From contig VLTN01000032.1 of assembly GCA_008330645.1 (NCBI GenBank), positions 248,001 through 312,000 on the forward strand: a stretch of DNA of 64,000 nucleotides. Direction: 5' to 3'. The notes beneath the pieces are model-generated. The model was not told where the DNA came from, made no database searches, and saw only the letters and a list, made by a program, of their open reading frames with translations. This DNA comes from Cafeteria roenbergensis. Lineage: Eukaryota; Sar; Bigyra; Bicosoecida; Cafeteriaceae. This document shows, in pieces, positions 1 through 46,516 of this stretch. The translations under genes were made by a program, and so were the position numbers. Numbering within the stretch: position 1 is the stretch's first letter; each line of letters starts with the position of its first letter.

Positions 1-3000
1 AAGCTGGCGTTGAACTCCGCTGCCCGCTTGGCCGAGGCTGCCCCTGCGGCCAGGGCGCGAGCGGCCTCCTGCGCGGCCGCCTCGTCGGACATGCCTCGCG
101 CCACGGCCTGGCGCGCCACGTTGGCCGCGTGGGCGATGGCTGCCGCGTGCAGCAGCCCCGGCAGAGTCACCGCCCTGGCCTCCTTGCGTGCCCGGCCGGA
201 CTCCCTGGCGCGCCTGGCCTTGTCCTGGCCAGCGTGCCGGCCCATGTACTTCATGAGCCCGGCGGCGAGCCAGCGCCCCGAGATGGGACCGGCCACCTGG
301 TGAGCCAGGCCGGGGATGGAGGAGACCGCGTCGATGACCTCGCGCTCAGCGTCCGCGCTGACAGCGGCGGCGTTGATGGCAGCCATGGCGCTCTCCCGGT
401 GGGCCTGCCGGGCCCTCTCGGCCTCCGCCTCGCTGCGCTGCGCGCCGGCGGCGCCGCCGAGGGAGGCCTCCAACCCGGTGCGCACTGCCTCGGTCGGGCG
501 GTGGGCGAACATGCCCCCGGCGCCTGCCTCGCGGCGGCGCGGCGGCGGCGGAGGGGGCGCCGCGCCCAGCGGACCAGCCCCTGCGGTGCCAGCAGTGGCC
601 GGCCGCGCCTTGGGCCGCGCCGGGCCCGAGGCGGACAGGCCCAGCGGCGTGGCGGCAGCGGGGGAGAGGAAACTGAGGGTGGGGCGGCGCTGGCCCATGG
701 TGCGGCGGGCCATGTCGCTGCGCTTGGATGCCGCCGTGGAGGCGCCAGCGCCAGCGCCAGCGCCGGCGGCTGCGCGCCCGGACACGTCCATGCTGGCCGG
801 GCCGGTGTTGGCCGCGATCCTGGCCATGCTGGCGCCGGTCTTGCTCTTGCGCCGCGCGACGCTGTGCACGTCCGTGCCGGCCTCGGCAGCGGCGGCCGCC
901 TGCGCGGCCGTGACGGGCAGCGACGCGCGCACGCGAGTCACGTAGCTGTCCACGTAGCCCGCCACGGGCAGCCGGCGGGCACCCGTCACATACGCGTCGT
1001 CTCGCAGCTCGTCGGGGACCGAGGCCGCCTCGTCGCTGTCCTCCCCGTCCGCGTCCAGGCCGCCGTTGGCGTCCAGCTGCTCCTCCACGGTGGCCGCGAT
1101 GGCTGCGAGCGCAGCGAGGCCGCGGGAGTGCCCGGCGCCGCTGCCGAGCACCTCTCGCTCGTGGCGCTTCCACAGCTGCAGCCTGCCCTGCGCCCGCTCG
1201 ACGGCCGTCACCGGGGGGCGCCGCGGGTCGTGGCCGAGCAGCAGCTCCGTGTAAGCCACGACGGAGATGGACAGCGTGTGGCTAAAGGCGCAGAGGGCGG
1301 CGAGCGCCGTGCGGTGGGTGGTGCGGAACGGCGACTCCAGCGGCAGCGGGCTCACCGCATGAGTGAGGTCCAGCCGGCCGTGCGCGGGCTGCGCTCCCGC
1401 CCACTCCTCGCCCTCGCCCTCCGCGCTCGCGCCGTCCTCGCGCACCCCAGGGGGCGGGGGCGGCATCGGGATCGGGGTGACGGTGGGGACGGCGGAGGTG
1501 TGGCCCCACGCGACGATGCCGCCGTCCACCACCGCGATGCTGTGGCGCCACCCCGCCGCGATGGAGTCAACGCCGACCCCAGCGAGCGCCCGCACGAGGC
1601 GGGGCCGGTGTTGGTCCTCAAAGTGGCCCAGGCCGAGCTGGCCAAAGGCGTTGCTGCCCCAGGACCACACGCCTCCCATGTTCGTCAGCACCATCACGTG
1701 GCTCCCACCGGCGACAACTGCCTTGGCGGCGCCCGCGAAGTCGGCCTCCTCTGCCCCCGCGGGCAGGGGCAGGTCCCGGTCCAGAAGCGACGCCGTCACG
1801 TCCCGGTCGGCCTCGTCCTCCTCCTGGTTCTTCGCCTCCTCGCCCCGCAGCGGGGCGAGAGGTGTCCCGGTGGCATTGCCGGCAGAGCCGCCCATCGAGG
1901 CCGCGCTCTCCCTCCGCTCCAGCCGGCGCTGCTGCGCCTCGCGCCCGGCGCGCTCCTCCTCGTCGGCCGCACGCTTCCTGTCCCTCTGCTCCCGGGAGGG
2001 CATCGCCACGGGCATGTCAAAGTACACTCGGCGCTCGCGCACCGTCGACGGAGAGCGAAGCTTCGCCGAAGCCCCGCCCACGGAGCGCCCGTCGGTGTCG
2101 CGCTCCGCGGCCGCCAGGAGCTCCGCCTTGGTGCTCAGGCGCACCGCCTCGGACCCGCCGCTGCGCGTGGACCCACGCGTGTGGCCCAGCTTGGAGGCGT
2201 CCGTGTCGGCCACCAGCTCAGCCTCGTCGCCGTCGCCCACGATGGGCTCCTCGCCAGCCTCGAGGGTCGCGGGGGGCCACACGGCCACCGGCAGGGGTTC
2301 GAACTCCGCGCAGCCGTCGGCCATGTCGGCGTGGGGCGTGCCGATGCCGAGCTGGCCGTTGGAGTTGTCGCCCCAGCCGAGCACGCGGCCCTGGAGGGTC
2401 ATCGCCATCGTGAAGCCCCACCCCGTGACCACGGATTTGATGTGGTGCCGCGCCAGCGAGCGCACGGGAGCGGGCTCCAGCCGGTCCGGCGCGCGCCACT
2501 GCCGCAGCTTGCGCTCGGCGCGGGCTGCCGCGCGGTCCTCGCGCTCGCTGGTCGTGCTTGGGCCGCCTGTCTCGCCAGCCGTGGTCACCGACGCGGCGGC
2601 GCTGCTGCCCCGGCGGCCGCCCTTGGCCCCCCAGATGCCCATTCGGTGGCCGCCGGGCACAAACTTGGCCGAACCGCCGTCCACCACGGCCTCCGCCGCG
2701 GCGCCCTTGAAGCCCCTGGCCACCGGCGAGAAGAGCGGGTGGTGGGGGTTGTCGACGTCGTCCATCGTCTCGCCGCGCGCCAGCGCAGCGTTCGTTGCGC
2801 TGGCCACGGCCGCCTCGCTGAAGCGCTCCTTGGGGTCCAGCAGCGCCGCGCTGCCGTGCCCAGTGAACTCGCCGGCGCCCCAGGAGTACACGGCCCCGGA
2901 GTGGGTCACCGCGAGCGAGTGACGGGGCCCCGCCGCGATTTGGACCACCCGCCTGCCGCGCAGGTTGGGCACCTCAGTCGGCTCCGCCGTGGGCTCCCGG

Positions 3001-6000
3001 TGCGTGAGGCCGAGCTGGCCGCGGGCGTTGCTCCCCCAGGACATGACGCGGCCCGACTCGGTGAGAGCCAGCGTGTGGTCGGCCCCTGCCGCGATGGCCA
3101 GCACCTTGATCCCCTCGGTGAGGTACCGCAGGGGGCGCCGCTGCTCTCCCGGCTCAAAGCGCAGCGCGGAGACCATGGTGGGCGTCTGGGTGCCGGAGGG
3201 CAGGCGCCTCGTGGTCACCACCCGGGTGTCCAGGATGGTGGTCGGGCGCTCCTCCTGGTCGTCCTCGCTCCCAGCGGCGGGGTCCGGCATGAAAGAGCCG
3301 CTCCGGCGGAACGACGAGCCGCGCACAGACACCCCGCCGCCGCCGCCGCCGCCGCCGACGCGCGGGGAGCCCGTGGTGCCGCCCACGGCCCACACGCGGG
3401 AGGGCCGCCTGGGGCCCATGCCGCCTCCGCGGGCCGCGCCGCCGCCGCGGGCGAACACCTCCTCGCCGTCGTTCACGACAGAGGCGTGGTCGGTGCCCAC
3501 GCTGGAGCCGTCGTCGCCCATCCGGCCGCCGCGCACGGTGCCCGAGTCGCTCACGCGCACGCCCATCGCCATCATGCGCAGGGAGCCGCTGCGCCCGAGC
3601 ACCAGGGAGCCCGCCCCGGTCTGCATGTGCTTCGGGGTGCGGGTGGTCACGGCGCGGGAGTCCCGGCGGCTGCGCGCCCGGGGACTGACGGAGCGCGACC
3701 TGCCGCTGGCCACGCTGCCAGCGCTGGTGGCCCGCATCAGCGCGGGCGGAGGCGTCCCGGGGGTGCCGGGAGTGATGGCGCCCACACGGGGAGAGCGAGC
3801 GGCCGAGTACTGCGCCGAGGAGACCGGCGACGTGCCGGGCGCCGCCTTGCGGATGAAGCCGTCACGCGCCGAGAAGTTGAGCGCGGATGGCCGGCGACGC
3901 ATCGTCTGGATAGCCGAGCCCGACCGGTGCAGCACGGACCCGCTCGCCGCCCCGGGGGGCGGGGACTCCCCCGTGGCCTCCGGGCTGAACCGGAAGGAGG
4001 AGGCCGGGCCCGCACCGCCGGCGGGAGAGCCCTGCAGCGGCATGCCGGGGCTGAGCCTGGCGGCGGACATGCGGCGGATGAGCCGGGCCTTCTGGGCCAG
4101 GGCGTCGTTGCCCGTGATGGCGCCGCCGAGCGGCTTGGTGATGTCGCCGCGCTGGTGCAGGGGGACCCCGGCCGCGTCCTCCTCGTAAATGTCCTCCAGT
4201 GGCACGCCCACGGTCATGGCCACGGCGGCGGCGCGCGAGGACGTCGACTCGTGGTAGCCGCGGCGCTGCAGCCCGAAGCGCTCGGCGGAGCGGGAGCGGC
4301 GCCGCTTCCCGAGGCCGTGCCTGGCCGCGCTGGTCGTGCTGGTGTTGCGGAACGCCTGCGCCTGGCGCACGCGCCTCGCCTCCGCCGGGGTCATCACCAC
4401 GCGCGTGCGCACGTAGCCCTGCCCCAGCTGGTGGCGGTCGTTCATGCCCCAGGAGTACACGTGGCCCTCCGACGTGAGGACAACGGTGTGGTGCGAGCCC
4501 AGCGCCACCGTGGTCACGCTCTGCCCCCTCTCCCTCAGGGCCGCGTCAAGGTCGGAGAGGCCCTTGGTCCAGCCTTGGGGGTAGCTGTGGTCCACGGACG
4601 TGACGGCATCGACGTCGATCACCAGCGAGTCGCGCGCCACGTAGTGCTCGTGGGCGACGTGCTCCCGGTCCCGCTCCGGCATGCCGTCCGCGACGCGGCC
4701 AAAGCCCGCGAAGGCGAACCCCCACTTGTCCCGCACCGCCTCGGCGCGGCGGCTCTCCGAGAGGCGCTCGCGCAGGCGCCGGTGCTTGGCGGCGTTGATC
4801 CGCGCCACGCGGTGCAGGTGGTGCACGAGCTGGTCCGTCTCCCGCTCGCGGGCCTGCATCGTCTTCCACGAGTGCTCGGCAAGCAGACGCCGCTCGCGGC
4901 TGCCGCGGAGGCGCTGCCGGAACACCGCGTGCCTCATCATGCGCTGCACCGCCGTGGCCGCCTGCCGCATCACGCTGAGGCCGCGCCACAGCAGCATGGC
5001 CCGCAGCCACCGCTGCACCTTGATCGCCGAGGCGCGCAGCTCCAGGAAGGCCGAGCGGACGCCCAAGCAGCGCGCCTGCGCCTGCAGCCGCGCCAGCCGC
5101 AGCACCGCCACGCGGGCCACGACCCGCTTCCGCACGAAAAGAACCACGTTGCGGTTGTCGCGGCGCCACTGGTACCCCCGCCAGCACGCCTGCAGCAGCA
5201 GCGAGGCGTGGACCTCCCCCCAGAACCGCCTGTTCTGCCGCACGAAGGTGCGCGTCGCTCGCTGGATCGTCACCGCCGCCTCGTACCGGTCCAGCAGCTG
5301 CTTGCGCAGCAGCGCCCCGGCCGCCACCGCCTGCAGGCGCTGGAGCGTCCGGAGCGACCGCTGGTAGGCCAGCTGCGCCTTGCGTGCCGCCCAGCACGCC
5401 TTGAGCTTGGTCAGGGCGCGCTTCGCGCGCACGAAGCGCTTCCGGGCCGCGAAGCCCCGGAAGGCCGTCGCGATGCGGATCGCCGCGGCGCGGGCCCGGG
5501 CGAAGAGCAGCCGCGCCGGGCGGGCCCGCATGACGGCCTGCAGCCGGGCCGCCCCCTGCCTCGCCACGAGGAACTTGTTCTGGTAGTAGAGCCCCCTCAT
5601 GAAGGCCTGCACGCGCACCGCGGCGCGGTCCATCACGGTGCGCCGGACGGACCGCAGCGTCTCCAGGGCCGCCGCCACCTCCCGCCGGAGGAAGATGCGA
5701 GTGCGCCCGAGCTGCACCTGCCGGGAGCGGTCCAGGCCCTCCAGGGCGGAGCCGTACTGCGCCCACAGCGCGTCGAGGAGGCCCTCGCACAGGGAGCGGG
5801 CCTCCGCCGCCGTGGCGTGGCGAGGGCAGGCGAGCGGCAGGTGGGCGGAGCTCACCCGGGGCAGGACCATCACGTAGACGTCGTAAAAGTCGGCAAAGAG
5901 GGCGTGCAGCGAGAAGCCCTCCGTCGCGGCGCGCAGGGCCGGCACCAGCGCCTGGCTGCGAACCTGGTGCGCGAGCGCCTTGGTGCACACGCTGGGGGCC

Positions 6001-9000
6001 GAGCCGCGGGCGGCGGCTGCAGCGGCGGACGCGCCGTCCGGAGCGCCGTAGGCTGGGACGAGGCACCGGACGAAGAGGGGGTCCGCGGCCAGGCCCGACA
6101 CCGCCTCAAGGAGGCTGGTCAGCTTTGCGGCGACGTCGGCTGCGCGGGGGGCCTGCGCGCCCTCCACCGCGGCGTCCGCCTCCCCTCGCTCCTCAACGAC
6201 GCGCAGCGAGTCGTAGATGGACGGCGCGGCGCTGGCACGGGAGGCCGCTGGGCCTGCCGCGGCGGCGGCGCCGTGGCGCTGCGACGACGCTGAGGAGCGT
6301 GCGCGGCCGAGCGACGCCCCCGCGTCCTCGGCGTCCGTCGCGGAGCCCCGCAGCGCCTGCGCCCGCATCACCCTGGCCAGCATCGCCACCAGGGGCACGG
6401 ACGACGCCATGACCGCGCCGCAGATTGAGAGCGGCGCCGTGGCCGCCCGGTTGGCGTCCAGCATGCCCAGCGCGTCGTAGGGCGTGTGCCCTTGCGTGTG
6501 CCGCACCGCGAAGAGGTGCTGCATCTGGCGGACGACCACGGCGTGCGCGCGCGTGCGGCGCTCCTGGGCGGCCGCCTCCGAGTCCGTGCCGGGCGGTACC
6601 CCGACCGCCTCGCTGCCGTGCATGGCCACAACGGCGTCCTCTGCCGTCATGTACTCCTCGGCCAGCGTGGCGGCGGCCACCCGCTCCACCGGCTTGGCCA
6701 GCCGGTTGAGGCACCGCGACCGCTTGTGCATCGTGGCAGCCTTCTTGAGCACGTCGGCGTCCGTCGACGCGCTGTAGTGCATGGCCTCCTGGAGAATTCC
6801 CAGCATGCCGATGGAGGGGGCGGCCAGCAGCGAGAGCACCGGCTGGTTGTCCTCCAGCCCGAAGTTGTCCTCGTCCGCCGACCCGCCGCGGCCGTGGTCG
6901 CCGTAGCCCCGCCGGGCAGCTGCCGCGGGGCCGCCGCGCGCTCCTGCGATGGAGAGCGCCGTGGGGGCCGGCCGCCGCTGCCGCAGCAGCCCCTCGTCCC
7001 CGAGCATGTCGGCGCGAGACACGATGCGGCTGGTGGTGAAGGCGCCCTCCGCCTGCTCGGCGCCAAAGTTGCTCAGGAGCTGCCACAGCCCGTTGCGGCC
7101 GAGCCCGGAGCCCCCGCCGGCAGCGACCGAGGTGGGATCAAAGGCCGCGTCGGGAGGGGGGTTGAAGTCGGAGCGAACCGGGCGCGTCCCGTACCCGGGC
7201 AAGTCCAGCACGCCCACGGCCACGAGGCGGCTCGCGGCCGCAGCGGCCGCGGCGTCGGCTCCGGGCACCGCCTCGGCCCGGGGGCCCATCGCGGTGGCGC
7301 CGCTGGCGAGGATGCGGCGCAGCATGCGAACCGCCTCCTCCTCGCCAGGATCGGCGCCTGCGCCGCGCCCGCTGGCAGGCTCCGTGTCGGCGAGGGCGTT
7401 CCTGGCTGCAGCCTTGCTGAGCGCGTCGGCCAGCCCTCCGCCGAGGCCGCCGCCAAGCCCGCCGCCGATGTCGGCGGCCAGCGTGGACGAGGCGAGCCCC
7501 ACCGCCGGGTGCTCCCCTCCGAGCGCGGCGTTGGCCCAGGCGACCACCGTGTCCACCAGCGCGGCGTACAGCGCGCGCATCAGCCGGTCCCGGCGCGCCT
7601 CGGCGTGCGCCACGCTCACGGCCGTCCACCGGGCGCCGCCGACCCCCGTAGCCCTGGCGAGGGAGCGGCGCGTGAGCAGCGCGGCGAGCTTGCCGCGGGG
7701 CAAGCCGAGCAGGTCCGCCGCCTCCTCGAACCGCCTGCCGGCCCACTGCGCCTCGTTCAGCCGGCGGGTCGCGGCCTCGCGGTCGGCAGCGCCGGCGGGA
7801 ATTTCGTCCGACGGCACGACAACGCAGGTGGCGTCGGCCCCGATGCCGTCCAGGGAGCCCGCGACGACGCACGCCTGGAGCTTGGCTGCCGTGGCGGGAG
7901 GCACCGACGCAGGGCCCTGCTGGCCCGGGACGTCTGCCTCGGGCCGGGGAGCCAGCTGCACGTCCCCGAGCGCGATGACGGCTGCCAGCACCTGGTGAAC
8001 GGCGGCCTGCTGCTCCTGCCCCACGCCCAGCAGCTCGAGGGCCGCGTTGAACCGGGCAAACGACGCCGCATCGGACTCCGCGTCGCTGGGCGACTCGGAC
8101 GCCACGGGGGAGGCGCCTCCGCGCTCCGTCACGCCGCCGCGATGCAGCACGCGGCAGTGCTGCGCCTCGGGCACGCTGAGCCGCGCGGCCTCTGCCGCGG
8201 GCAGCCCAGCGCACAGCTGGTAGAAGGCGTGAAAGTTGCGCTCTCCGGGGGGGGTGTGGGTCACGCGCTCCACGTCGAACGGCGTGATGTCCACCCGCGC
8301 AGCAACTGGCATCCCGGGGGCCGCGGCCGTCTCGAGGATGCCCGGGGCAAGGTCGCTGGGGCACGCTGGCACGCCGCCCGGGCTGGCTGCCAGGAACACG
8401 CGCGCGAGGACTCCGCACCGGCTCGCGTCGGGAGACACCGCGGTCTCCGCGCGGGTGAGCGACGCGATGACGGTCTGCGCTGCGTCGAGCCGGCGCGCCA
8501 GGAGGGGCAGCTGGAGCGCCTTGGCGGACTCACGCATGCGGGCGCGGGTGGCCTCTGCCAGGATGAGCTCGATGCGCGCCGCGGACGGGAGAAGCCCTGT
8601 GCGGGCGTGCGGGGAGGCCGGGGAGGCCGACGCGGCGGGCGCAGCCGCGCGGACGGGCGTGCGCGGGCGCTGGGCCATGACAGCGCTGAAGGCCTCGGCT
8701 GCGTGGGTGACGGCGCGACGCCGCGCCGCGTCCACGGCCTTGGCGTGGGAAGAGCCCGGCTCGCTGGCGGACCCGTCCTGGGCTCTGGCAGCCAGCTGCG
8801 CCGTTCCCGCGGCCCCCGCGGAGGCGGCCGTGAGGGAGAGGGGCTGGTCTCCCGGCGTGGTTGGGGCTGCGCTCGCCGCGGAGGAGGCCACGGAGGCGCG
8901 GCGCGCCCCTGTGGTGCGGCCCACAAGCACGGTTGCGGGCATGGCCCCGATGGTTGCGCCGGCGTCTCGCAGGCCCGCCAGCACGTCCTCCGCCGCGCCG

Positions 9001-10332
9001 AGCGACGCCGTCTCAACCTCGGCGGCGATGCTGTCAGCGGACGCAATGTAGCGGATCAGCTCGGCGGACGCGGCCGATTTTCCGGAGCCTGCCTCCCCAA
9101 GGACGAGGACGGCCTGAGGCACGCCCTCCGACACGGCGCGCCAGACCGCCTCCTCCGCGGCCTCGTAGACCGACGGCGCGGAGGCATCCTGCGGCAGGGA
9201 GAGGACGCGCAGCCGAAGAGAGGGCGCGGAGGGGGGGGCGCATCGACTCCGGTGCCTTGTGCAAACGACGGGGGGCGGGGGCGGCTTGCGCTTGCTGTAC
9301 ATGCACAGGCGGCGCGGAGGCACCGCTGGACCCCGCACGCTCGCGGGCTGGACTCACAGGGTCGGCATCAGTAGCTGGCTTGTCGGCGGCGCGGTCCGCG
9401 ATGGCCGCACCCCCCCTCGGGGAGGAGGCGTCGGCCACGGCAAGGGCGCCGAGCGAGGCGGCCACGGCGCTGCTGCGCCTCACGGCGCGCCACCGGGCCA
9501 GCATCATGGCCTCGGTGCTGCTGCCTTCGGCAACCGCCCCGCCGGGGTTCACCACGGCGAGGGTGTCCCCGACCCACGTGGCCGTCGCGCCCCTTGCGAA
9601 TCTGGCGGCGATCGCGTGAACCACGGCCGCCTCGTGAACGTGGGGAAGGTCCACCAGGTTGCTGGGCGCATCCTCGCCGCTGGGAGCAGCGAGGAACAAG
9701 TCGTTTGCGTGCACCTGAAGCGCGCCCGTGCGGGTCACGACGGCGCCGCGAGGGAGGCCGGGAGAGCCGGCCCCCTGCTCGAGGCGGACGCCAAAGGTCT
9801 CGGCGCCGATGCGGTTTTCCACCGAGCCGAGAACGTAGACGCTGCCGGACGGGGCACCAGAGCGGCCCGCTGGATCGGTGTCCTCGTCGTCGGGCTCGGC
9901 CCCGGGGCCTCGCGGCCGCGGCATTGCGGGGTTGAGAACCCACACCTGCGGGGATACGGCGCGAGCGGGCGAGTCCCAGCAACAGCTCATCGCGGCAGCG
10001 CGGCTCAGGGCTTCGCTTCTGGCCACGAGCTTCGCAATCCGACGGGTGGCGGGGCGAGCCCTCGGGTCCAGTGCCGTGGCGCGCGAGTGAGGAGTCCCTC
10101 AACCAGGCCGAGCGAGCAGGCAACCCGCGCTCGGGCTCCCTCGCTGCGGCCCCCTCGGGAAGCAGGCCGCCAGCCGCAGGCTCACCTTGGTCCCGGGCTG
10201 AAGCAGCGGCACCTGGGCCAGCGCGGACGGCGTCAGCAGCGAGGGCAAGTCGCCGGCATCGCCGCGTCGCCCTCCGTAGAGCTGCCGGCTGGAGATCTGT
10301 GCTCCCGCGCCCGACGGCGAGCGCGAGGCCAT
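1..10332 (-). CDS. Giant myosin-like motor with IQ motifs and RCC1 repeats (3' end off window)
   Basis: Three exons are visible: 10332-10186, 9945-9358 and 9188 to beyond base 1, giving about 3,307 residues with no stop before the edge. The ATG at 10332 opens exon 1. Both introns (GTGAG...GCAG) are phase 0, and splicing gives the myosin N-terminal GTKVWVLNP motif. Motor landmarks follow in order: LVDLPHVHE (exon 2), P-loop GEAGSGKS (residues 276-283; canonical GESGAGKT), switch I region PDASRCG (about 498; canonical DNSSRFG), GERNFHAFYQL, switch II DLPGYG (about 907; canonical DxxGFE), FVRCLVP and QLGRTRIFLR. A long array of IQ-like basic repeats spans about residues 1430-1660. RCC1 signatures of the SWG...GQLG type lie near 4480, 3000, 2910, 2370, 1680 and 1530, interrupted by Ser/Gly-rich linkers. 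Myosins transport cargo on actin, but the altered switches make ATPase activity doubtful. The family call is firm; the class is not assigned. Confidence 0.9.
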
Positions 10333-13412: not shown

Positions 13413-16400
13413 TCAGGCGCAGGCCGACTCGGCGGCGGCCGCGGCGGCCGCGGCGCGGGGGGGGGCTTCCGCGCCCTTGCGCAGCGCCACCGCGTCGATC
13501 AGCTCGAGCGTGAAGCGGCGCGCGTCCTGGCAGCGAAGCACGGGCACATCGGCCGCCTCGACGAACTCATAGAGGCCCCGGGAGCCGAGGTGGCGCACGA
13601 TCGAGTCGCGGGTGGTGACCTCCTCGCCGTTCATGTTGAAGCCGCCGAGCCACGAGTTGCGCGGGGTGACGTCGGCGTTCCAGCTGTGGTCCGAGAGCAC
13701 AACGACGACGCCGCCCTCTGCCACGACGCCGGCCTTGCGAAGGCTCTTGAGCGCGTCGAGGGGCTGGGTGACCTGGGTCAGGGCGCCGTCCAGCACCACC
13801 GCGTCGAAGGGCTTGCCCCCGTTGGCCTTGAGCGCGGGCTCCAGCTCCGACACGCAGGTCTCGACGTACACGGCGCGCGAGCGGTCGATGTCGCGGTCCA
13901 CGTTGACGAGCGCAGTGGTGGTCAGGATGCCCTCGGTGAGGCGCTGGTACTCGAGCTGGCCGTGGTGCTGCAGGAGGCGGGCCTGGCGAAGCACTGGCTC
14001 GACGTGGTGGGTGCCAACCACGTTGCTGAAGTGCCTGCAGAGCTGCATCGTCACTCCGCCGGCGCCGCAGTTGAGGTGCAGGACGGAGGCGTCGGCTGCC
14101 GCGGCCGCAGCGGGGGCCTTGGCCTTGGCGTAGAGCGTGGCCACGGCGTCAGCGAGGCGGCGCGGGAAGGTGCTTGCGTCGGCCAGGGTGATGGCGCCGA
14201 GAGCGGAGACTGCCGGCGCGTCGCCGACGACGGCGAGCTTGTCGGCGGCGGTCGCGTACCCGTCGGTGACCTGCTGGCTGATGTCGCCCATGCCCTCCCA
14301 CAGGTTCTTCACGGTGGCCTGCCCGGGGAAGTCCTCCTTGGTGCCGGCGGTGGTGCGGACGTACCGGAAGCCGAGCTGCTGGAAGAAGTGCCTGCGGAAG
14401 GCGTAGCGGCCGAAGTTGGAGCTCTCGTCGCCGGTGGAGACCCAGGACCCGCCGAGCATCATGGTGTGCCAGCCGTCGAAGCAGGGCGTGCTGAAGTCGT
14501 CGTAGAGGTAGTGGATGCTGAAGTCGGGCAGGCCGGCGAAGTGGTCCTCCACGTACTCCCACACGTTGCCGTGGGTGTCGTAGAAGCCGGCGGTGGAGGG
14601 CGGGTAGAGGTGCACGGGGCTGGGGGAGTGGAACTTCATGTTGGTGTTGCCGGGGCACACCGGGTTCATGACCACGTCGAACGCGGCCGGGTCCTCCTGG
14701 TATGCCGGGTGCTCGATGGAGGCGTCGACGGGGGCGGGAGCGCCGAAATCCGGGACCGTGGCGGGCGGGGCCTTGACAGCATCCGCGGTGGCCACCATGC
14801 GCTCGGCGGCCTCCGGGTCAGCGGGGATGCCCGCGCGCTGGCCGGCGAAGCGCTTGCCGGTGAGGGCCTCCGGGAAGGGGCAAGGGTCGTCGCGCATGGC
14901 GTGGAACTCCGCCTCGGTGGGCATGCGCAGCTGCCCGGGGGCCAGGCCCTCGTTGGCCGCCTTCCAGTTGAGGAAGGCGCGGGCCTCGTGGTAGTTCACC
15001 TCAACCGGCCAGTCCCAGGGCATGGGCACAATGTCGAGCTCCACGCGGAGCATGAACTCGGTCCCGGTGCCGGCGCGCGCGTGGCCGTCGTCCTTCTGGT
15101 ACGGCAGCTCGGGCGTTCCGCCGATGAAGTCGGGCATGGCCGCCGTGGCCACCCAGAAGCTGGGGTGCGTCGCGTTGCGGTACGAGGCCCAGCGCCACCC
15201 CTCGTCGTCGCCGCGGGGGCTCACCCACCACTTGCGGTCGCGGTATCCGCCCGCGAGCACGAACGGGAGGAACTCGGCGTTGGTGACCTTGAAGCGGCTG
15301 CCGGCGAAGGCGGGCACGTCCACCACGCGCTTGCCGTACTCGTTGTCCCAGCCGTACTGGGGGAAGTCGCAGGGCTTCCCCAGCACCACGCGGGTGGCGT
15401 CGACGTCCTGGAGCTTGTTCTTCGGCACCTCAGCGGGGGTGGAGGCGCGGAAGGGGCAGTCGCGCCACGTGGCCGGCTTGCGCACGCAGTCGATGGGCAG
15501 CTGGCGGATGAGCACGGACGAGGTCTCGAGGTGGATGCGCTCGTGCTCGAAGCCCATGATGAGGCCCCAGTAGGGAGAGTCCATGGTGATGGGGACCTCC
15601 TTCGGGTCCGGCATGGCGTTGATGACCTCGACCACCGCGGCCTTGACGCGCTGGCGGAAGGCCTCGGACTCGGCCACGGTGGGCCAGGCGTAGTCGTCGT
15701 CCTGCATGTCGTCCATGTCGTCCCAAGACATCTCGTCCACGCCCGTCTCGAACATCTTCTGGTAGTACGGGTCGATGTCGTCTGCGATCGGGCAGCAGCA
15801 GCCAGCAGCCAGCAGCCAGCGTGGCGGCGCAAACGACGCATTGGCATGCCCGCGCGCGCTCAGGCGGCGCGGCAGGGCACTCCCCCGTCTAGGGCGGTGA
15901 GCTACTTGGGCAACGCCGACGGCGCAGCCCGGCGCGTGCCTCACCGATCACGCCAGCGAGCGCCAGCTTGTTCGCGTACACGCTGCAAGTGTGCGCGAAG
16001 TAGAAGCTGTTCGGCCAAGCAGGGACACGGGGAGCGCAAAACGGGCGGGGGTTGCGGGGGCGGGGGGGGGGGGGGCGTGGGCCGCGGTCGCTTGCCTTGC
16101 CCGCGAGGATTGCGGTTGCGGAAGCGGGCGGGGAGCGGCCTGTCCCTCACATCAGGGGGCGGCGCAGGACGTCCGGCTTCATGTAGAAGACCGAGTCGTT
16201 CTTCAGCAGCGCAAAGAGAGACGAGTTGAGGTCGTAGGAGTTGAGGAAGTACGCCAGGATGTCCGCCTTGGTGGACGTGTTCAGGTTGGGCGCAGGCAGC
16301 GAGTCCAGCACCAGCTCTGCGCGGCGAGATGGGGCACGGACGTGAGGACAACTCGCGGTGGCTGGCTGGGCGGCAGCGCCACGGGACTGTCCATGGCTTG

Positions 16401-17399: not shown

Positions 17400-20258
17400 A
17401 TGCCCACGCGGGTGCTCAACGTGGCCGAGAAGAACTCTGTAGCAAAGGCGATTGTGGAGCAGCTAAGTCCGAGTCGCCGGCCCGACAAGAGGGTGCGCAC
17501 GAGCCGACCTGCACCGTAGTCGAAGAGCATTGCTGCTTTTGGCAATGCGGCTCGCGAGGCCGCGCTCGGCGCCCTCAGCAGCGCTGTGCGCCTCTCGCCT
17601 GCAAGGTGTTGCCCGCAGGTCAACGGGGACTACAAGTACTGCCCCATCTACTACTTCCGCTGCTCCTTGGCCGCACTGGGAGGGGACTGCGACATGGCCA
17701 TGACGTCTGTGTCCGGGCACCTGATGGAGATTAACTTCCCAGCGCACTTCAGGTGCGCGCAGGGCGCAGACTTGCAGAGTTCGAACCTCGCGCTACGGCA
17801 GGGCTGCTGCACCCGCGACGCAGACTGGCCCCGCCGCCTCCACTGTCATGCTGGGCCTAAGAGTGTCGCGTCTGTTCCCGTCCTGTGGCTCCGCTCGCCC
17901 CACCGCAGGAATTGGGCCGCCATGGACCCGGGCGACCTCTTTGCCGCGCCCATCCAGGCCACGGTCTCGACGCGCTTGAAGCCACTGCAGCGGCAGCTCA
18001 GGCGCCTGGCTCGCGATGCGGACGTGCTGGTTCTGTGGACGGACTGCGACCGCGAGGGCGAGGCCATCGCCTGCGAGGTCCGAGACGTGTGCCGCTCCGC
18101 CAAGCGGGGCCTCCAGGTTCTGCGAGCCCGCTTCTCGGCCATCACAGGGGGCGCGATCCGAGCCGCTGTGATGCCGGGTGCTCTGGTTCCCCCGGACCAG
18201 CTGCAGGCCGACGCCGTCATGGCCCGGCAGGTGCTGGACCTCCGCATCGGCGCCACGTTCACCCGCTTCCTCACGCTGCTGATGCGGCGGGCTCTGCCTG
18301 GGCACTTTGGCCGGACGGAGAGGGGCGGGGGCGGCGCCAGCACCCTGGTTTCGTACGGCCCGTGCCAGTTCCCCACCCTCGGCTTCATCGTCGACCGCTA
18401 CCTGCAGCGGGCAATGTTCCGGCCCGAGCCGTTCTGGGCAATCACCTTGCATGTGTCCCCGGCCGCTCCGGCGGGCCACGGTCCAGGCGCCGCTGCGGCT
18501 GCGGCTGCGGGCGCTGCTGCCACAGGATCTGCCCCGGCAGGGGCGGCGGGCAGCGAGGAGGCGTCGCTGACGTGGTGCAGGGGCAGGACCTTCGACAAGA
18601 TGACGGCGCTGTGCTTGGCCGACGAGGCCGCGGACGCGGTGCAGAGCGGAAGGTGCACTGTTGAGGCCGTCGACCGGCGCGTGCAGACGAAGCGGAAGCC
18701 GCTCCCTCTCACTACAGTGGAGCTGCAGAAGCGAGCGGCGCGGTGGCTGCGCCTGAGCGCTTCTGCGACCGCATCGGCTGCGGAGGCGCTGTACCAGAAG
18801 GGGATCATATCGTATCCACGCACAGAAACGGACTCCTTCCCTGCTGACTTTGCGTTCGTCGACCACCTCCGCGACCACGAGGGCCACCTCCAGTGGGGCC
18901 CGTTCACGTCGAGGCTTGTTCGGGGAGAGTTCCGCCCCCCCCGCTGCGGCAAGCACATGGACAACGCCCACTCCCCGATTTACCCCACCAAGTGCAAGCT
19001 GCCCTCCGAAATCGAGGACGCGACCCAACGCAAGGTGTACGAGCTGGTGTGCCGGCACTTTGTCGCCTGCTGCGCGCAGGACGCCACAGGCGACCTGCGC
19101 ACCGTGCGGGTGCGGGCGGGGTCGGAGTCGTTTCGAGGGTCAGGCCTCGTTGTGACGGATCGTGGATACCTTGACGTCTACCCGTGGGAACGGTGGTCGA
19201 GCCGCTCGCTCCCAGACCTGGGGCCCCCAGGCACGACGCTGGGCTCGGAGCGCGCCAAGGTCGGCGTGAGCGGCGGCGAAACAACGGCGCCTGAGCTCCT
19301 CACGGAGTCGGACCTAATCGCCACGATGGACAAGGAGGGCATCGGCACGGATGCCACCATTGCAGAGCACATCAAGACCATTGTGGCGCGCAGCTACGCC
19401 GTCCAGACGGCAGGATCCCCGGCTCGGTTCGCGCCAACCACCCTTGGGACCGCGCTTGTTTGGGGCTTCGCTAGGCTGCGGGTGCCCATGTACAGGCCGT
19501 TCCTCCGACGCAACATGGAGGCAGACCTCGAGGAGGTGTGTCGTGGAAGCAAGACCAAAGACGCCATCGTGGAGGCATGCATTGCCGAAATGCAACCGCT
19601 CTACACGCAGATCAAAGGAGCCAAGGACACGCTGGTGGGCGCGGTCCGCACGTTTTTGGAAGGGGGAGGGGCTGGCGCGGTGAAGGAGATCGAGAACTTT
19701 GCCAGGCGAGAGGCTCGTCGGAGGGACGGAGAGAGGGCGGATGGAGGGTCAGGCGGAGGGGGCGGAGGCGGAGGGGACGGAGGCGGAGGCGGAGGAGGCG
19801 GAGGCGGAGGCGCAGGCGGAGGAGGCGGAGGCGGAGGCGGAGGCGGAGGAGGTGGCTCAGCTGCAGCCGCTGCATCCCCTGCAGGAACGCCGTCGCAGAT
19901 CCAAAGCAGGGACCTGTCCTCCTTCGCTGGACGCCTCCTTCGCGATGACGGAGGCCCGTCAAAGAGGCCTCGTCAGGCGCCCCCCGTGGCGGCTCTTGCA
20001 AGCGCTGCTTCTGGGCCCTCGGCCGTGTCTTTGGTCCGGCAGGCAGCTGGTGGCGCCTCCGCAACGCCTCGCTCGGGCCACGACACGGCTTCGGGGGGCA
20101 CTCCCAAGCCCAAGACTGTTCGCCGCTGCGGCATCTGCCGCCAGCCTGGGCACACGAGGCGCAATTGCCCCCACAAAACAGGCGGCGGGGTAGTGGCGCC
20201 AGCAGGACCGAGTGCATCCAGCGCTGCGCCAGCCTTTGGCGACGAGGACTTCGTGTAG
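17400..20258 (+). CDS. TOP3A: DNA topoisomerase III alpha (type IA)
   Basis: Exons 17400-17492, 17619-17752 and 17909-20258 give 858 residues. Donors are GTGCGC, acceptors CCGCAG, phases 0 and 2. TOP3A passes single strands and dissolves double Holliday junctions with a RecQ helicase and RMI1. The TOPRIM domain begins at VLNVAEKNSVAK and holds WTDCDREGE (about residue 120). LDLRIGATFTRF and YGPCQFPTLGF follow. The catalytic tyrosine is Tyr378 in ISYPRTET. LLTESDLIATMDKEGIGTDAT matches TOP3A better than TOP3B. The C-terminus departs from animal TOP3A: a low-complexity Gly/Asp tract is followed by one CCHC zinc knuckle (RRCGICRQPGHTRRNCPHK), and no GRF zinc finger is present. A RECQL4 helicase gene lies 25 kb downstream. 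Confidence 0.95.
19741..19856 (+). repeat. (GGAGGC)n hexanucleotide tract in TOP3A
   Basis: Imperfect GGAGGC repeats inside the last TOP3A exon encode a poly-glycine linker with rare Asp and Ala, between the topoisomerase core and the zinc knuckle. The tract remains in frame. It is likely length-polymorphic. Confidence 0.85.
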
Positions 20259-20578
20259 CTGTGCCGTGGCTGCGCGCAGTTGATTGATGAGCTGTGTATG
20301 CGTGGATATGTATTTGTGCGCTGCTCAGTGAGACGACCGCTGCGTGACTTCCAAGCTTGGGACCAGCGGCGCCAAGGTTGCGCGGGGGGTTCTCGGCACC
20401 ATTGGGGGAGCGACGGAGCTGTGCGCGGGGGGGAAGAAGGGTCGAGTTCCCTCCCTCCCACATGGGGGCTCTGCCGAATGTTGGAGAGAAACGCAACATC
20501 CGCTGCGCGCCTCCTGCGTGACCCCGCGCGTGGCACCCTGTGCGAGCAGGTTGGCTGCGGCGGAAGCGCGTGTTTGCC
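20259..20578. other. Intergenic, 320 bp (TOP3A 3' flank, PCIF1 5' flank)
   Basis: Just after the TOP3A stop is a T/G-rich stretch (about 20290-20325, with TGTATG and TATGTATTTGTG) that could act in 3'-end formation. The rest should hold the PCIF1 promoter. No gene is seen. Confidence 0.45.
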
Positions 20579-22573
20579 ATGAGCGCTGCTTTGTGGGATC
20601 GCGAGCACGGCCGAAGTGCTGCCGGACTGGCCAGCTGTGGGCTGCCCTGCACAAGTGATGTAAGGGCCGCCCAAGCCACAGACCTCGGCATCGAGCTCGC
20701 CAGGGCCAGGGCCATCGCTGGACTCCGAACCGCGGCCAAGGAGCTCGTGGCCGCGGCCAAGCCAGGCGCGCGGCTGCCGGCAGGGGCGTTTGACAAGTGG
20801 CTCTTCACTGCTTTGCTTGCCGAAGCTACCTCAGACAGTGTGCGCAAGTCAACCAAAACGATGAGGCGCCGCGCGCGGGCGGCCACTGCCAAGGGCGGGG
20901 CAGCTGCCAACGGGCGGGAGGTGGACGCGGACCCTGTGATCCCCCGAACCGTGCGGCCTCGCACGGACAACGGGGACCTCAAAGCCGTGATTTCCGCGCT
21001 GGGCATCGACGAGGCGCGCTCCGGCACAATCGTGAGCGACCTGTGCCGGGCTGCTGCCCGAGCTGCAGACGCTGTCGACAAGGCGAACCGCACTGGCCCC
21101 CTTGTCTCCGCGCCAAACGCCGGCGCTGGCGGACTGCGCATCGAGTGGGAGGGATCGTCGCGCGATGAGGACGGCAAGCCTGCCGTGCTCTGCGTGGTGC
21201 CCGCGTTGTGCCCGGACGCGGCCATTGCGGCTGCCAAGGCGGAGGCTGCGGCTGAGGAGGCCATCGCCGCGGCCCGGGAGGCGCTGTTGGCAGCCGCGGA
21301 GGGCCAGGACGACGACGGTGATGGTGACGATGATGGTGACGACGATGAGGGAGACGACGATGCCGGTGACGACGAGGAGGAAGAGGAGGAGGAAGAGGAG
21401 GAGGAAGGGCACGAGGGAGGTGAGGCTGCTGGGAGAAGTAGCGCGGACGAGGACGAGGACGAGGCCGAGGAAGACAGCGACGGTGGCTCTGACAGCGCGG
21501 GCGGCGCTGCGGCGAAGAGCGCGATCGACGGGTTCTACTGCGCTCGCACGGCTAAGCCAGTGTCTGCGGCCGCCGCGGCTGCATCTGCCGCGTCCGAGCG
21601 CAAGGCCAAGGCCGAGCGCGGGGCCGAGGCCGCTCGCCGGGCTGTCGAGGACGCCACTGCCGGCCTCCCCTCCCCGTGGATGCTGGACCCCAGCGACGGA
21701 GCCGGCGCCATCTCGCCCTGCGTGCTGGCGCCCCCCGCCGCGGTTGCGCTCAGCGTCTGCCGTGGCAAGACGCGCCTCCGGCTCAACCCGGCCCACTACC
21801 GCAAGCTCGGCGAACTCTACGCGCGCGGGCCCGGGCGCATGCACCCCTGGAAGTTCCACGAGCGGCTCTTTCTCGTGCTCCTGCGCTACCACGGCGAGCA
21901 AGGCGGCGGCGGCTTCCAGGCCGCGGCGCACGGCGAGGTGTTCGACGCGCTCCGCGACCACTGCGGCGCCGACATGGAGTGCTTCGCCTCGCCGCTCAAC
22001 TGCAGGTTCGCGCCCTTCTGCAGCGCCTACCCCGACACGGATCTGTGGTTCGGCGGCGCGGGGTCCTTCTTCTCTCTGGACGCCGGCGCGGGCGGGGGCA
22101 GCTTCGAGGCCAACCCGCCGTTCGTCCCTGCGGTGCTGAACCGGATGCAGGAGTCCATGGAGACCGCCCTGGTTCGGTGCGAGGAGCCCTTGTCGTTCGC
22201 AGTGATCATTCCCGCGTGGGACGGCACCACCGGCTGGCGGGGCCTCGCCGAGTCCCCGCACCTGCGTGCGTCGTTCACGCTGGCCCAGCGCGAGCATGGC
22301 TACCTGGAGGGCTCGCAGCATTGGCGGCGCACGTCGTTCAGGGTCTCGACCTGCGACACAACCGTGTTCATCCTGCAGAACGACGCTGGCGCGGAGCGAT
22401 GGGCCTTCAGCAAGGACGCAGAGGCGTCTGTTCGCGCTGCGTTTGCGTCGCGCCACACAACGCTGGCAGCCAAGCGCGAGGCCAAGGCCGCCAGGCGCGC
22501 CGCCAAGCGGCCCCGGGACGAGGAGGCCGGGGGCGCCGCAGCGGCCCCACCCCGCCGGCGCGCGCTCGCCTGA
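20579..22573 (+). CDS. PCIF1: Cap-specific adenosine N6-methyltransferase (PCIF1/CAPAM)
   Basis: A single exon encodes 664 residues; the ATG at 20579 is the first true ATG (the open frame extends upstream only through non-ATG codons). PCIF1 methylates N6 of 2'-O-methyladenosine next to the mRNA cap. The C-terminal half carries the family core: HPWKFHERLFLVLLRY, FASPLNCRFAPFCSAYPDTD, GSFEANPPF with the catalytic NPPF at about 512-515 (553-556 in human), EPLSFAVIIPAW, GSQH and TTVFILQND. The N-terminal WW domain, which binds the RNA polymerase II CTD in animals, is absent. Its place is taken by an alanine-rich helical region and a long Asp/Glu tract (about residues 243-310). A basic KRP-type C-terminus could be a nuclear signal. 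The stop lies 97 bp before the next gene's ATG on the same strand. Confidence 0.93.
   Translation: MSAALWDREHGRSAAGLASCGLPCTSDVRAAQATDLGIELARARAIAGLRTAAKELVAAAKPGARLPAGAFDKWLFTALLAEATSDSVRKSTKTMRRRARAATAKGGAAANGREVDADPVIPRTVRPRTDNGDLKAVISALGIDEARSGTIVSDLCRAAARAADAVDKANRTGPLVSAPNAGAGGLRIEWEGSSRDEDGKPAVLCVVPALCPDAAIAAAKAEAAAEEAIAAAREALLAAAEGQDDDGDGDDDGDDDEGDDDAGDDEEEEEEEEEEEGHEGGEAAGRSSADEDEDEAEEDSDGGSDSAGGAAAKSAIDGFYCARTAKPVSAAAAAASAASERKAKAERGAEAARRAVEDATAGLPSPWMLDPSDGAGAISPCVLAPPAAVALSVCRGKTRLRLNPAHYRKLGELYARGPGRMHPWKFHERLFLVLLRYHGEQGGGGFQAAAHGEVFDALRDHCGADMECFASPLNCRFAPFCSAYPDTDLWFGGAGSFFSLDAGAGGGSFEANPPFVPAVLNRMQESMETALVRCEEPLSFAVIIPAWDGTTGWRGLAESPHLRASFTLAQREHGYLEGSQHWRRTSFRVSTCDTTVFILQNDAGAERWAFSKDAEASVRAAFASRHTTLAAKREAKAARRAAKRPRDEEAGGAAAAPPRRRALA
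21307..21475 (+). repeat. GAC/GAG-rich tract coding an acidic stretch in PCIF1
   Basis: Imperfect trinucleotide repeats encode alternating Asp/Gly and then Glu runs, giving a strongly acidic disordered linker before the methyltransferase core. Confidence 0.8.
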
Positions 22574-24100: not shown

Positions 24101-27100
24101 TCAGGACCTTGCGCCGGGTCCTGCCGAGCCGTGCTCCTGCGAAGACGCCAACTGCGCCAGAGCGGCGAGCGTCACGGTGGAGTCAGTCCTGCCGGTCAGG
24201 GCAGCGATGGAGCCGCTGAGCGCGCTTGCCTCCGTGCGAGTCACGCTCAGCCCCACAGCTGCCGCGAGGCTGGCGACTTCGGCCGGGCCTAGGCGGCCGG
24301 AGCGATGCGAGTCGGCAGCGGCGAACAGCTCGTGCAAGGACTCGGAGCTGGCCCTGAGCTTGCATGCGAGTTCGGCCAGCTGCACGTCTCGCCGGCGCGC
24401 CGCTTCGCTGCTGGGGAGAGTGAATACGTCTCGCATGGGCGTGGCCTGCCAGGCGCGTCGGCGCTCGCGGCGCCGAAGCATGACGGTTTCGAAGGTGAGA
24501 AGCCGCTCCTCCGCGGACAGGCCGCTCAGGGCGTCCAAGAGGGTGCATGCGACCCGTTTGTTCACCCAGACCTCGTTGTTCGAAAAGAGGGCTGCTGCTG
24601 CGACGGCCGAGGTCTCGGGCAGCTGCGTCATCACGCCGCCGGAGCCAACCCGCTCGCTCGCGGCGGCCCCCGGGAAGTCAAGCAGCGAGAGCTTGCTGGA
24701 ACGAACAAGCCAGAGGCCGGGGCTGGGCGCCCCGTCGTGGAGCGAAGCCTCCAGCACGCGCGTGTGGAACGCCCGGCGTATGGCCTCCGCCTCGGCAAGT
24801 GACAAAAGGATCCCGGCAGGGCCGGCGCCGGTCGCCCCGCCAATGGTCAGCACAGCGGCAGCCAGCTTGATGCGGAACTCGGGCTCGCCGCTAATGTCCT
24901 GCGGGCACCAGTGGGGCGACGCGAGCACGGCGGCAGGCATTCCGACAGGCGAGGGGCAGGCTCTTCCGGGCTTCCAAGAGCTGAAGCGGTACGAGCCCGC
25001 AACCACGCTCGCGAGGCCATCGCCCGAGCCCACGCGCCCGAGATCGGCGATGCTCCAGCTCTCGGCCATTGGGATTGCGACGTCGGGGGTGTTGAACCAC
25101 TGCGCGAGCTCGGACTCTCGCTCCGCGTCCTCCTCCTGCTCGACCTCCGCCTCCGCCTCCTGCTCCTGGACCATCTCGCTGCCGAGCTCCAGACCAGCCT
25201 CGGCAGCCGCGTCGTCTTCGCCAGAACCGCTCTTGGAGCGCCGCACGATGATTCCTATTCGCTCCTCGTCCTTGGACCTCACGAACCGCGGGTGCTCGCA
25301 CCTGGCGAAATCCGCAGCAGCTGCAAGCCCTCCCCCGTCGCTGCAGGCCGAGGCAGGCTCCGCCAACGGGTCGGGAACGCTGAAGCTGACGGACTCGCGG
25401 AACACTTTCAGTGCGGGCAGGATGGCCTCCCGCACGCCTCGGTTCGCAATCGGCTTTCGAACTTCGCTGGCGATGGGAAGGCCAGGGGTAGCCGCGCAGG
25501 CCGGGTCCACGCCGCCCATGATGGCCTGCATGTCGCGAAAGGCTGAGCGCCGCCACGTGTGGGCCATGTCCTGCTTGCACAGCTGCGAGAACATCAGGCT
25601 CTCGATGCGGATGCTGTTCCGGAGCAGCCAGCCGAAGAGACCCTGCAGCAGGTCCTCGGACGCAAAGGCGCGAGCCCCACGGTTCCGCTGGATGAGCGAC
25701 GCGACCTCGGGTGTCACGAGGAAGTTGACAGTCTGGCCTTTGCCGATGCCGCGCATGCGCCATGCTGCCTGGAACACGTCGCGAAGCGTGTTGTCCTTGC
25801 CGATGGTGAGCAGGGCTCGGGCCGCGGGCGCCTGCTTGATGTCCATGCCAGTGGTGTGGCACTGGTCGTAGATGGTGAGGCGCTTGTCAAAGGGCAGGCC
25901 GCACTCCGAGAGCGGCACCGCTTCGGTGCGGCCACGAATGGCAACCATCTTGGCGTTGGCCTCGTTCAGGAAGACGACCCCGGAGTGCTTGGGCAGGCCC
26001 TCGCGAAGCAGCATCCACGCCGTGTCCTCGTTGGACATGCCAGTGATGAGCGCGCCGCAGTCGATGAGGGCGTGGTATGGCGGGTCCGCTGTCGCAAGCG
26101 CCTTGAGCAGCGCGCGCACAGACCACGCCTGGGAGCCCGCGGCGTCCTTGAACAGCATTCCCGTGGCCACAGTGGTGTCAATGCTGACCACCGACGGGTC
26201 CGTCAGGGTTGAGAGGAACTGGCCCTCCGACCCCGGCTCAAAGTCGCACGACCCCAGCTCCAGCGGGATGAGGTCGTTGGGCGTGCCGGAGAACCCGCAC
26301 CTGCCAGCGAAGAGCATGTCGGTGCCCAGCTCCTGGCCCGACGCGCTAAGCTTTGCCTCGCGGTGGTTGCAGACGAAGGGGAAGACGGTGGTGTTGAGGA
26401 ACCAGCGAGCGGTGGGGGCATGCCTGCCAAGCAGCCGGAAGACGTCCCGCGCTTGCTCGGCGTCGTCCATCTGCAGCAGCTCAAGCTCAGGCACTTCGGG
26501 CTCGCCAAGCGAGGCTTCCCGGAACATTGCGTCGTCAAGCGCGCCCGTGCTTGCCGGCGATGGGATTTGCTCAGCTTGGCGCTGGGCCTTGACAGCGTCA
26601 GCCACGGCGCCAAATTGTTCCCGCCACGCCGCAGCGGACGCACGGCACCAGCGCGACCAGAGCTGCCGTGCGGGCCGCTGGCTGATGGCGCCCACCTGGT
26701 GCGCCATGGCCTGCTTCAAGGTCCGCCCGACCTCGTGAAGGTGGCGCAGCTGCAGCCCCTCGTACGCGTAGGCGAGCGCCGTGAGGCCGATCAGCACGTC
26801 CGGGTGCGCGTGCTCGCTCACGGGGCTGGGGACGTCGAGGCCCACGAATGGGACGGACGTGAGGAGGCGGGTGCGGGACGTCCCTGGCGCCAGGCTGGAC
26901 GCGTGGGCGCCGGTGAGGAGGCCGAACGTGACGCGGTTGATCTTTGTCAGCGCGTGCGGGAGCAGCCCGGTGACCCACTGGCGCGCGAGGGCGACCAGGC
27001 GACGGCCTCGCTCCGGGAGCCCTCTGCAGACGCTCAGGACCGCGGGCGACCGTGGCGTCCGGCTGGCAACAGCAGCGGCGAGCTCGTCGGAGCCGGGCTG

Positions 27101-36100: not shown

Positions 36101-36771
36101 CCGGTGCCACTGGCTCATGATCGCATGGCCTCCGCCGGTTCCGAGCCACCCCTGCGCACAAAAGACCACCCGGAGCCGAGGGTTGGGGACTGTTTCATGG
36201 CCGGGCGAGCATGCAGCCCCCCGCTGGTCGCAGGCACTCGGTCGCGCTCGCCGACTGGACTCTGACTCACGCTCGGCAGCATCAGGCAGCCGCCTGCCTT
36301 CAGGTTTACGAGGCGGCTGTGCAGGTCGATCACCTGGTCCCGCACAGTGTCGCCAGACCCAGCCACCGTCCCTTCGTCCATGCAGGCAGCAGCGTCGCGC
36401 AAGCGCGCGGGATCCATTCGCCACCCGTGAGCCTCTGCCATTGCGGCCAGTGCTGTCACCAGCTTGACCATGACTTTGAGCGAGGGGACGCTTCGGTTCC
36501 CCTCCAATTCGGTGTCCTCTACGAAGGGGTCGCCTGCGGGCGTGCCAAGGCGGACGGGTGGGCTTGCGGCGTGGCGCTGGGCGGCGACGGGAGACCGCCG
36601 CGCGCACGCACAACGCTGCAACGCCGTGCTCTCCCAGGGCAAGGGCTTGCCAAGGCCGGCCTCACCGAACTCGCCAACGTATGCACCATCCAGCCAGAAC
36701 TTGGTTCCTGCCGGGTAGACCTCGAACGAGGGCTCCCGCGGCCCCGACGCAGCCGCGCTGTGCGCTGCCAT
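24101..36771 (-). CDS. Giant DUF3638-like P-loop (helicase-like) protein, 4,183 aa
   Basis: Exons 36771-36271 and 36151-24101 join in phase 0 (119-nt GTGAGT...GCAG intron). The 12-kb second exon is uninterrupted. The splice gives LPS|GWLGTGGGHAI, matching the N-terminal part of very large DUF3638-type proteins of protists and fungi, function unknown. Late in the protein is a P-loop-like GMGKTACVSPL (about residue 2890), then QVVPSALLAQTQTLL, a DEVDMLF motif (about 3035), GFSGTPNDLIPLEL (about 3448) and QCHTTGMDIKQ (about 3595). This order resembles a superfamily 2 helicase-type ATPase. An EF-hand-like loop (ADSHRSGRLGPAE, about 4108) sits near the C-terminus. The first exon holds a possible extra 78-nt GTGCG...GCAG intron (36611-36534) that would remove 26 unusual residues without changing frame. 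The family assignment is from motif memory; gene reality is very secure. Confidence 0.85.
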
Positions 36772-38754: not shown

Positions 38755-39399
38755 GGGCAAGCCGCAAGCCGCAAGCGTGGCAGAGGCAGGCCCCTTCCCC
38801 TCCCCCTCTGCTTGCAGCTGCTGGTCGGTGCCTGCGCGGCCTGCGTGGCCCTTGCCCATCTCTGGCAAAGGCGACGCCGCGGCAGAGCCCTGCGCCTCGG
38901 CCAGCCGCCGACGAGCGGGCAGGCGCGTGACAGCGGCAGCAAGGTCGCCTGCAGGCTGACTTGTTTCGCCACCGGATGACTGGCAGCCTGGCGCTCGCGA
39001 GGGCTTGCGCCTTGACACGCGATGGCGTCGGCGTCTGCCCAAATCATTGCACCGAGGATTTGGTGCGTGGGAGTGCCGAGGCAAGCCGTGCGCCTGCAGG
39101 CGGGCGCGGCACGGAAGGTGGCACTGGCGGGCTGGGCGGCACCCCTGACTGAGCCCCGTGAGCGAGTGACGGCCGATCGGGTGGCCCGGTTGGTCGGCGC
39201 GAAGGCACGAAAACTGCCCCTCAGCCGCGGCGACAACACAACATGCAGCCGGATCAGGGCAAGCCTGGCCTGGGCAGCCGACTCGCTTGATGGGACCGCG
39301 CTCGGCAGCAGGGGGGCGCGGGGGCCACGAAGGGCTGCCCGTCGCCCGCAAGCCACGCGGCGCTGCAGGAACGCCAGTCGCCGAATGGAAGCTGCGCGC
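38755..39399. other. Intergenic, 645 bp
   Basis: This is the upstream region of the nucleoside-hydrolase-like gene. Its reading frame remains open to 39351, but the encoded residues are low-quality Arg/Pro/Ala sequence ahead of the signal peptide, so I treat it as non-coding leader or promoter. Nothing else is seen. Confidence 0.45.

Positions 39400-46479: not shown

Positions 46480-46516
<37 letters not shown>

Follow-up and report, generated by a model that had tools for sequence, protein, structure and literature searches.

A giant RCC1-tailed myosin of Cafeteria roenbergensis, probably a weak motor

The question raised by this locus is what a myosin head can still do when conserved residues of its nucleotide switches have been replaced, while it is carried together with a long neck and an RCC1 propeller in one very large protein. 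The initial annotation of the window (the whole stretch of 64,000 nucleotides analysed here) took the gene for a possible pseudo-motor scaffold or actin tether with all three nucleotide elements eroded. Our analysis suggests a giant RCC1-tailed myosin that is probably a weak motor, with a head that may hold rather than pull. The gene model consists of three exons:

10186..10332, minus strand: exon 1, residues 1-49, start ATG at 10332, GT-AG phase 0 splice model
9358..9945, minus strand: exon 2, residues 50-245, with the first portion of the motor including the purine-loop NP
1..9188, minus strand: exon 3, residues 246-3307, one open reading frame, open at the window end, with the remainder of the motor, the IQ array, the RCC1 region and a C-terminal region

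The two introns expected earlier (240 and 169 nt) are both plausible as GT-AG introns in phase 0 in this sequence model, with splice points placed by eye from the myosin pattern. The stop-free protein has 3307 residues, in agreement with the proposed length of more than 3,300; this is a minimum, since the gene extends past window position 1 and its C-terminus lies outside the view. Because the window has a GC content of 71.7% and the strand opposite the gene also holds an open frame of 2096 codons, the length of the frame alone is weak evidence of coding. Better evidence is given by the GC content by codon position (0.75/0.60/0.92 in the coding sequence), a pattern that is absent from the introns and the upstream DNA. 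The myosin-RCC1 gene is real. Its product has an extremely biased composition (Ala 19.2%, Arg 10.5%, Lys 1.6%), which is an effect of GC and has to be weighed before any lost Lys, Asn or Glu is read as functional.

Within this protein the domain order is myosin head, about nine IQ motifs and RCC1 propeller region. Profile searches with the translated exons placed both families above their cut-offs. The Pfam Myosin_head profile matched exon 3 with 104 bits (cut-off 33.3, E 8.5e-30) and gave a weak match to the open frame of exon 2 alone (E 0.052); RCC1 (PF00415) scored 160.3 bits for exon 3 (E 1.6e-47) and 174 bits in a second search (cut-off 21.7), and WD40_RLD 223.5 bits (cut-off 150; E 2.7e-64 for exon 3). 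The two regions that follow the head are:

4824..5630, minus strand: IQ neck, residues 1432-1700, repeat spacing mostly 23 residues or multiples
1494..4523, minus strand: RCC1 propeller region, with six clear blades at residues 1801-1838, 2273-2311, 2324-2363, 2493-2532, 2732-2770 and 2785-2810

The long IQ array is supported by the PF00612 profile, which recognised five stretches of the neck (31.4 bits, cut-off 20.3), and by eight non-overlapping IQ-like stretches found by regular expression, to which one near residue 1484 was added by eye. The propeller is split, as had been proposed, with long inserts of about 430 (434), 130 and 200 residues between its blades. A profile of the six blades scored 31.6 to 68.3 bits against its own protein, compared with 10.7 for the best stretch of 200 shuffles; these values serve only to place the blades, since the profile was built from those same blades. 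Independent support for RCC1 comes from a PDB match to UVR8 (E 2.4e-53). Residues near 1733 and 2870 may together close a seventh blade, as judged by eye. The predicted model of the RCC1 part, made without an alignment, is of low confidence (pLDDT 35.1, pTM 0.27). For the head, matches to myosins X, XV, V, VI, II and I were among the best 60 of 91 distinct PDB chains (E up to 0.001). The head model is likewise of low confidence (pLDDT 44.5, pTM 0.42), and with it the best 50 of 215 Foldseek matches were myosins or a myosin fusion, at TM scores of at most 0.21; these matches are given no weight here. By homology, the head is classed as that of a divergent myosin, a class assignment that makes no claim of a proven motor.

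One rival explanation is an artefact of the gene model or assembly, with introns missed or two genes falsely joined. The model was made from sequence alone and contains many Ala/Gly-rich inserts, and two short inserts (residues 912-943 and 985-1015) have a nearly flat GC content by codon position, close to that of the introns; moreover, the 434-residue RCC1 insert holds three in-frame GTRAG..YAG pairs. However, this same insert has a GC3 of 0.95, and 16 of the 17 inserts examined (three in the RCC1 part and 14 of the 19 in the head) contain no in-frame GTRAG..YAG pair of at least 60 nt, although looser GT-AG pairs cover most of the insert in 8 of the 17. The P-loop, both switches, the IQ array and the RCC1 part share the single open frame of exon 3, so that on the present assembly both parts belong to a single gene, as the initial annotation had also held. 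We consider an artefact very improbable.

The state of the nucleotide pocket was read from a MAFFT alignment of the head with Dictyostelium myosin II, chicken myosin Va and three heads from a genome scan. The latter lie on three contigs (L001-L003) filed under the Verrucomicrobiaceae bin JAIYDP01; they appear to be intron-bearing eukaryotic myosins, so this bin is probably contaminated. An hhalign alignment against the two references begins past the P-loop. All three motifs named earlier are present, in one exon:

9075..9098, minus strand: P-loop GEAGSGKS, residues 276-283, Walker A intact
8412..8435, minus strand: switch I SPDASRCG, residues 497-504, same register in MAFFT and hhalign
7188..7205, minus strand: switch II DLPGYG, residues 907-912, Glu459 replaced by Gly, same register in MAFFT and hhalign

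A degenerate P-loop, as the initial annotation had it, is ruled out: in the alignment with both references the loop satisfies the Walker A consensus G-x4-G-K-S/T, and it keeps G179, E180, G182, G184 and K185 of Dictyostelium, with the changes S181A, A183S and T186S. In the switch I region (Dictyostelium 227-241) five of 13 invariant residues are kept (A228, T230, S237, R238 and G240), and the changes are N227R, K229E, R232V, N233S, N235D, S236A, F239C and K241V. The sequence SPDASRCG departs from the canonical NxNSSRFG, and the claim of an altered switch I is thus right for Asn233 and Ser236 but not for Ser237, Arg238 and Gly240, which remain. Switch II retains two of five invariants (D454 and G457) and shows I455L, F458Y and E459G; DLPGYG differs from the canonical DxxGFE, and the reported loss of its Glu is borne out by both alignments. 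The statement that all three elements are eroded is therefore correct for switch II and part of switch I, and overstated for the P-loop. A regular-expression search of the window in six frames found no canonical switch I or II elsewhere. Nor was one restored by any of the local GT/GC-AG pairs of 30-700 nt tried as splices, 418 around switch II and 488 around switch I. Within the splices tested, a missed intron concealing a canonical switch is ruled out, which speaks further against an artefact.

The changes in the switches have to be seen against the divergence of the whole head, which shows 24.8% identity to Dictyostelium over 750 columns of the MAFFT alignment and keeps 64 of 158 invariant columns (invariant across the references and the three contig heads where present). 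In the pocket (Dictyostelium 126-135, 179-187, 227-241 and 454-459) 14 of 28 invariants are kept, and outside it the count is 50 of 130 (Fisher p=0.29). By this count the pocket is not selectively eroded, its invariants being kept at least as often as others, and since they are lost no more than others the divergence is general: the head as a whole has diverged strongly, and its changes are not confined to the switches. The least-kept regions are 188-226 (0/7), the relay 460-510 (6/23) and 693-759 (2/7), and a Pro stands at the Glu683 position in the SH1 region. Where Dictyostelium and myosin Va agree, the present head keeps 119 of 314 columns, and L001, L002 and L003 keep 225 of 301, 147 of 220 and 194 of 271, respectively. 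Invariant Gly, Ala, Arg and Pro are kept in 25 of 37 cases and invariant Phe, Tyr, Met, Ile, Asn and Lys in 13 of 52, and GC drift explains much of the divergence. It could be argued from this low identity and drift to GC-favoured residues that, in a genome driven by GC, the head is no more than a weakly constrained folding relic, and that the IQ-RCC1 part alone matters. Nevertheless, the frame is open throughout the head, conserved segments show a coding-type GC content by codon position, the Gly and Lys residues of the P-loop are kept and the structural segments stand in order; we regard a relic as quite improbable.

Besides substitutions, the head contains 19 inserts of at least 10 residues relative to the two references, among them:

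8490..9035, minus strand: loop 1 region, with inserts of 72 (residues 297-368) and 98 residues (381-478)
7227..7502, minus strand: pre-switch II insert of 92 residues, 808-899
7095..7175, minus strand: insert of 27 residues (917-943) between switch II and the relay helix, same register in MAFFT and hhalign

The relay helix is driven by switch II, and for this reason the 27-residue insert is the most telling one. Its GC content by codon position is nearly flat (0.75/0.72/0.84), and no in-frame GT-AG pair of at least 60 nt lies within four residues of it. Loop 2 has no Lys and a net charge of -2, which speaks against strong actin binding.

Two further readings of the head need to be compared. 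One is a slow but working motor, whose head continues to cycle with a different acidic residue in place of Glu459. It agrees with the retention of the Walker A loop, Ser237, Arg238, Gly240, Asp454 and Gly457, as well as with the long regular IQ lever, which is most useful to a motor, and an Asp seven residues past DLPGYG might in principle substitute. However, the first six positions past this motif (TRPVRS) contain no acidic residue, and the low count of relay invariants together with the Pro at the Glu683 position weighs against a cycling head. We think this reading unlikely, although it is to be taken more seriously than a relic. The other is a slow or non-cycling, hydrolysis-impaired tether or scaffold that would bind nucleotide. 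We take it as the best explanation as a whole, our confidence and our doubt being about equal; the general divergence of the head, the GC drift and the lack of Lys in loop 2 weigh against it. E459G, N233S and the 27-residue insert can fairly be read as signs of impaired hydrolysis, and to this extent the pseudo-motor proposal stands, without the erosion of all three elements on which it was built.

Previous work on the motor cycle bears on this reading from both sides. The bridge between Arg and Glu is described as critical for hydrolysis (PMC11112018). In Dictyostelium, S236A is reported to give a slowed motor and S237A and R238A a dead one (PMC6572417), and the mild effect of S236A counts against the tether. 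Taken together, Ser237 and Arg238 being kept, S236A merely slowing the motor and Glu459 being lost, we infer nucleotide binding without efficient hydrolysis instead of an empty pocket. In the proposed mechanism, the head would still bind Mg-nucleotide through its intact Walker A loop and the Mg-side residues Ser237 and Asp454, the bridge between Arg238 and Glu459, by which the pocket closes for hydrolysis, could not form with Glu459 lost, and the 27-residue insert might uncouple the relay helix from switch II. The head would then hold actin, a putative ligand, or another partner, the lever could bear calmodulin-like light chains, maybe with calcium control, and the propeller would dock on a second structure, directly or via a partner, as the RCC1/ATS1 domains of TgMyoH do on the conoid. 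A more specific proposal is a nucleotide-gated, non-hydrolysing clamp, with ATP bound but not split, that is controlled by calcium and connects actin with a microtubule-type structure, as a pseudo-motor evolved independently of myosin-18; we put it forward tentatively and consider it rather doubtful.

The architecture and this kind of pocket decay are each already known. Toxoplasma gondii MyoH is described with a head, eight IQ motifs and three RCC1/ATS1 domains that are required for its anchoring at the conoid (PMC4711953). The present protein shares the order head, IQ, RCC1, a likeness drawn from the domain description, whereas MyoH is described as an actin-based motor (PMC4711953). T. gondii MyoL (PDB 9ya0), with 2484 residues and three EF-hand subunits bound to its neck, is located in the preconoidal P2 ring (PMC12819142) and carries RCC1 (PMC12918799). 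It resembles the present protein in its giant size and in its RCC1 part, which matches by sequence with E 6e-8. The MyoH/MyoL-type order is found here in one protein. Orphan myosins of Paramecium, likened by description, have tails with IQ, coiled coil and RCC1 (PMC2375034).

Regarding the pocket, a general statement that the P-loop and both switches are altered in some myosins is given in PMC5583752, and the heads of Myo18A/B are reported to have negligible ATPase with all three elements altered, their switch II DTXGFQ being expected to block the Arg-Glu bridge (PMC11112018). The present head shares with them the change of Ser to Ala in switch I (A528 of myosin-18 equals Ser236 by counting from R530) and, in switch II, both a Pro and the absence of the Glu, and with Myo18A a small extension after switch II (PMC11112018). 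Altered switches with a lost switch II Glu, a feature of class XVIII, are therefore found here. In contrast, the P-loop Glu is lost in myosin-18 and kept here, and the tail is a coiled coil in myosin-18 and RCC1 here. With IQ and RCC1 after the head, the protein is not filed as class XVIII by its predicted domains, and the likeness is probably convergent. The earlier assertion that no myosin with all three elements eroded was known on this architecture stands only for the combination: such alterations are described in Myo18A/B and RCC1-tailed myosins are known, and no RCC1-tailed myosin lacking the switch II Glu was found in titles and abstract openings of the open-access literature, though the combination may already exist in MyoH or MyoL. 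If the head is dead for hydrolysis, a pseudo-motor with similar changes (Ser236 to Ala, switch II Pro, Glu459 lost) would exist beyond the myosin-18 family, in a protein whose layout resembles that of myosins active at a microtubule-based apparatus. It would then be possible to ask what an RCC1 myosin requires of the motor cycle.

Viral contigs scanned twice with reference heads yielded no myosin, and a scan for the P-loop pattern gave eight contigs with no tblastn match to the references; an RCC1 query found seven loci in viral contigs, at 31-36% identity. As for the neighbouring genes in the window, positions 13413-15947 (minus strand) hold a gene of the ovothiol pathway, an OvoA-type 5-histidylcysteine sulfoxide synthase (TIGR04344, 1.3e-139); its match to the C-terminal methyltransferase model is weaker and falls below the cut-off. 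A type IA topoisomerase (17586-20258, plus strand) adjoins a PCIF1-domain protein (20540-22573, plus strand). Another giant protein is encoded at 24101-36613 (minus strand) by an open frame of 4170 residues with DUF3638 and DUF3645, and a nucleoside hydrolase domain lies at 37165-39351 (minus strand). Finally, an open frame of 2192 residues at 45501-52079 (plus strand) contains a DEAD helicase, a helicase C domain and a GRF zinc finger, and a partial match to phosphoglycerate kinase was observed at 61364-64000 (minus strand).
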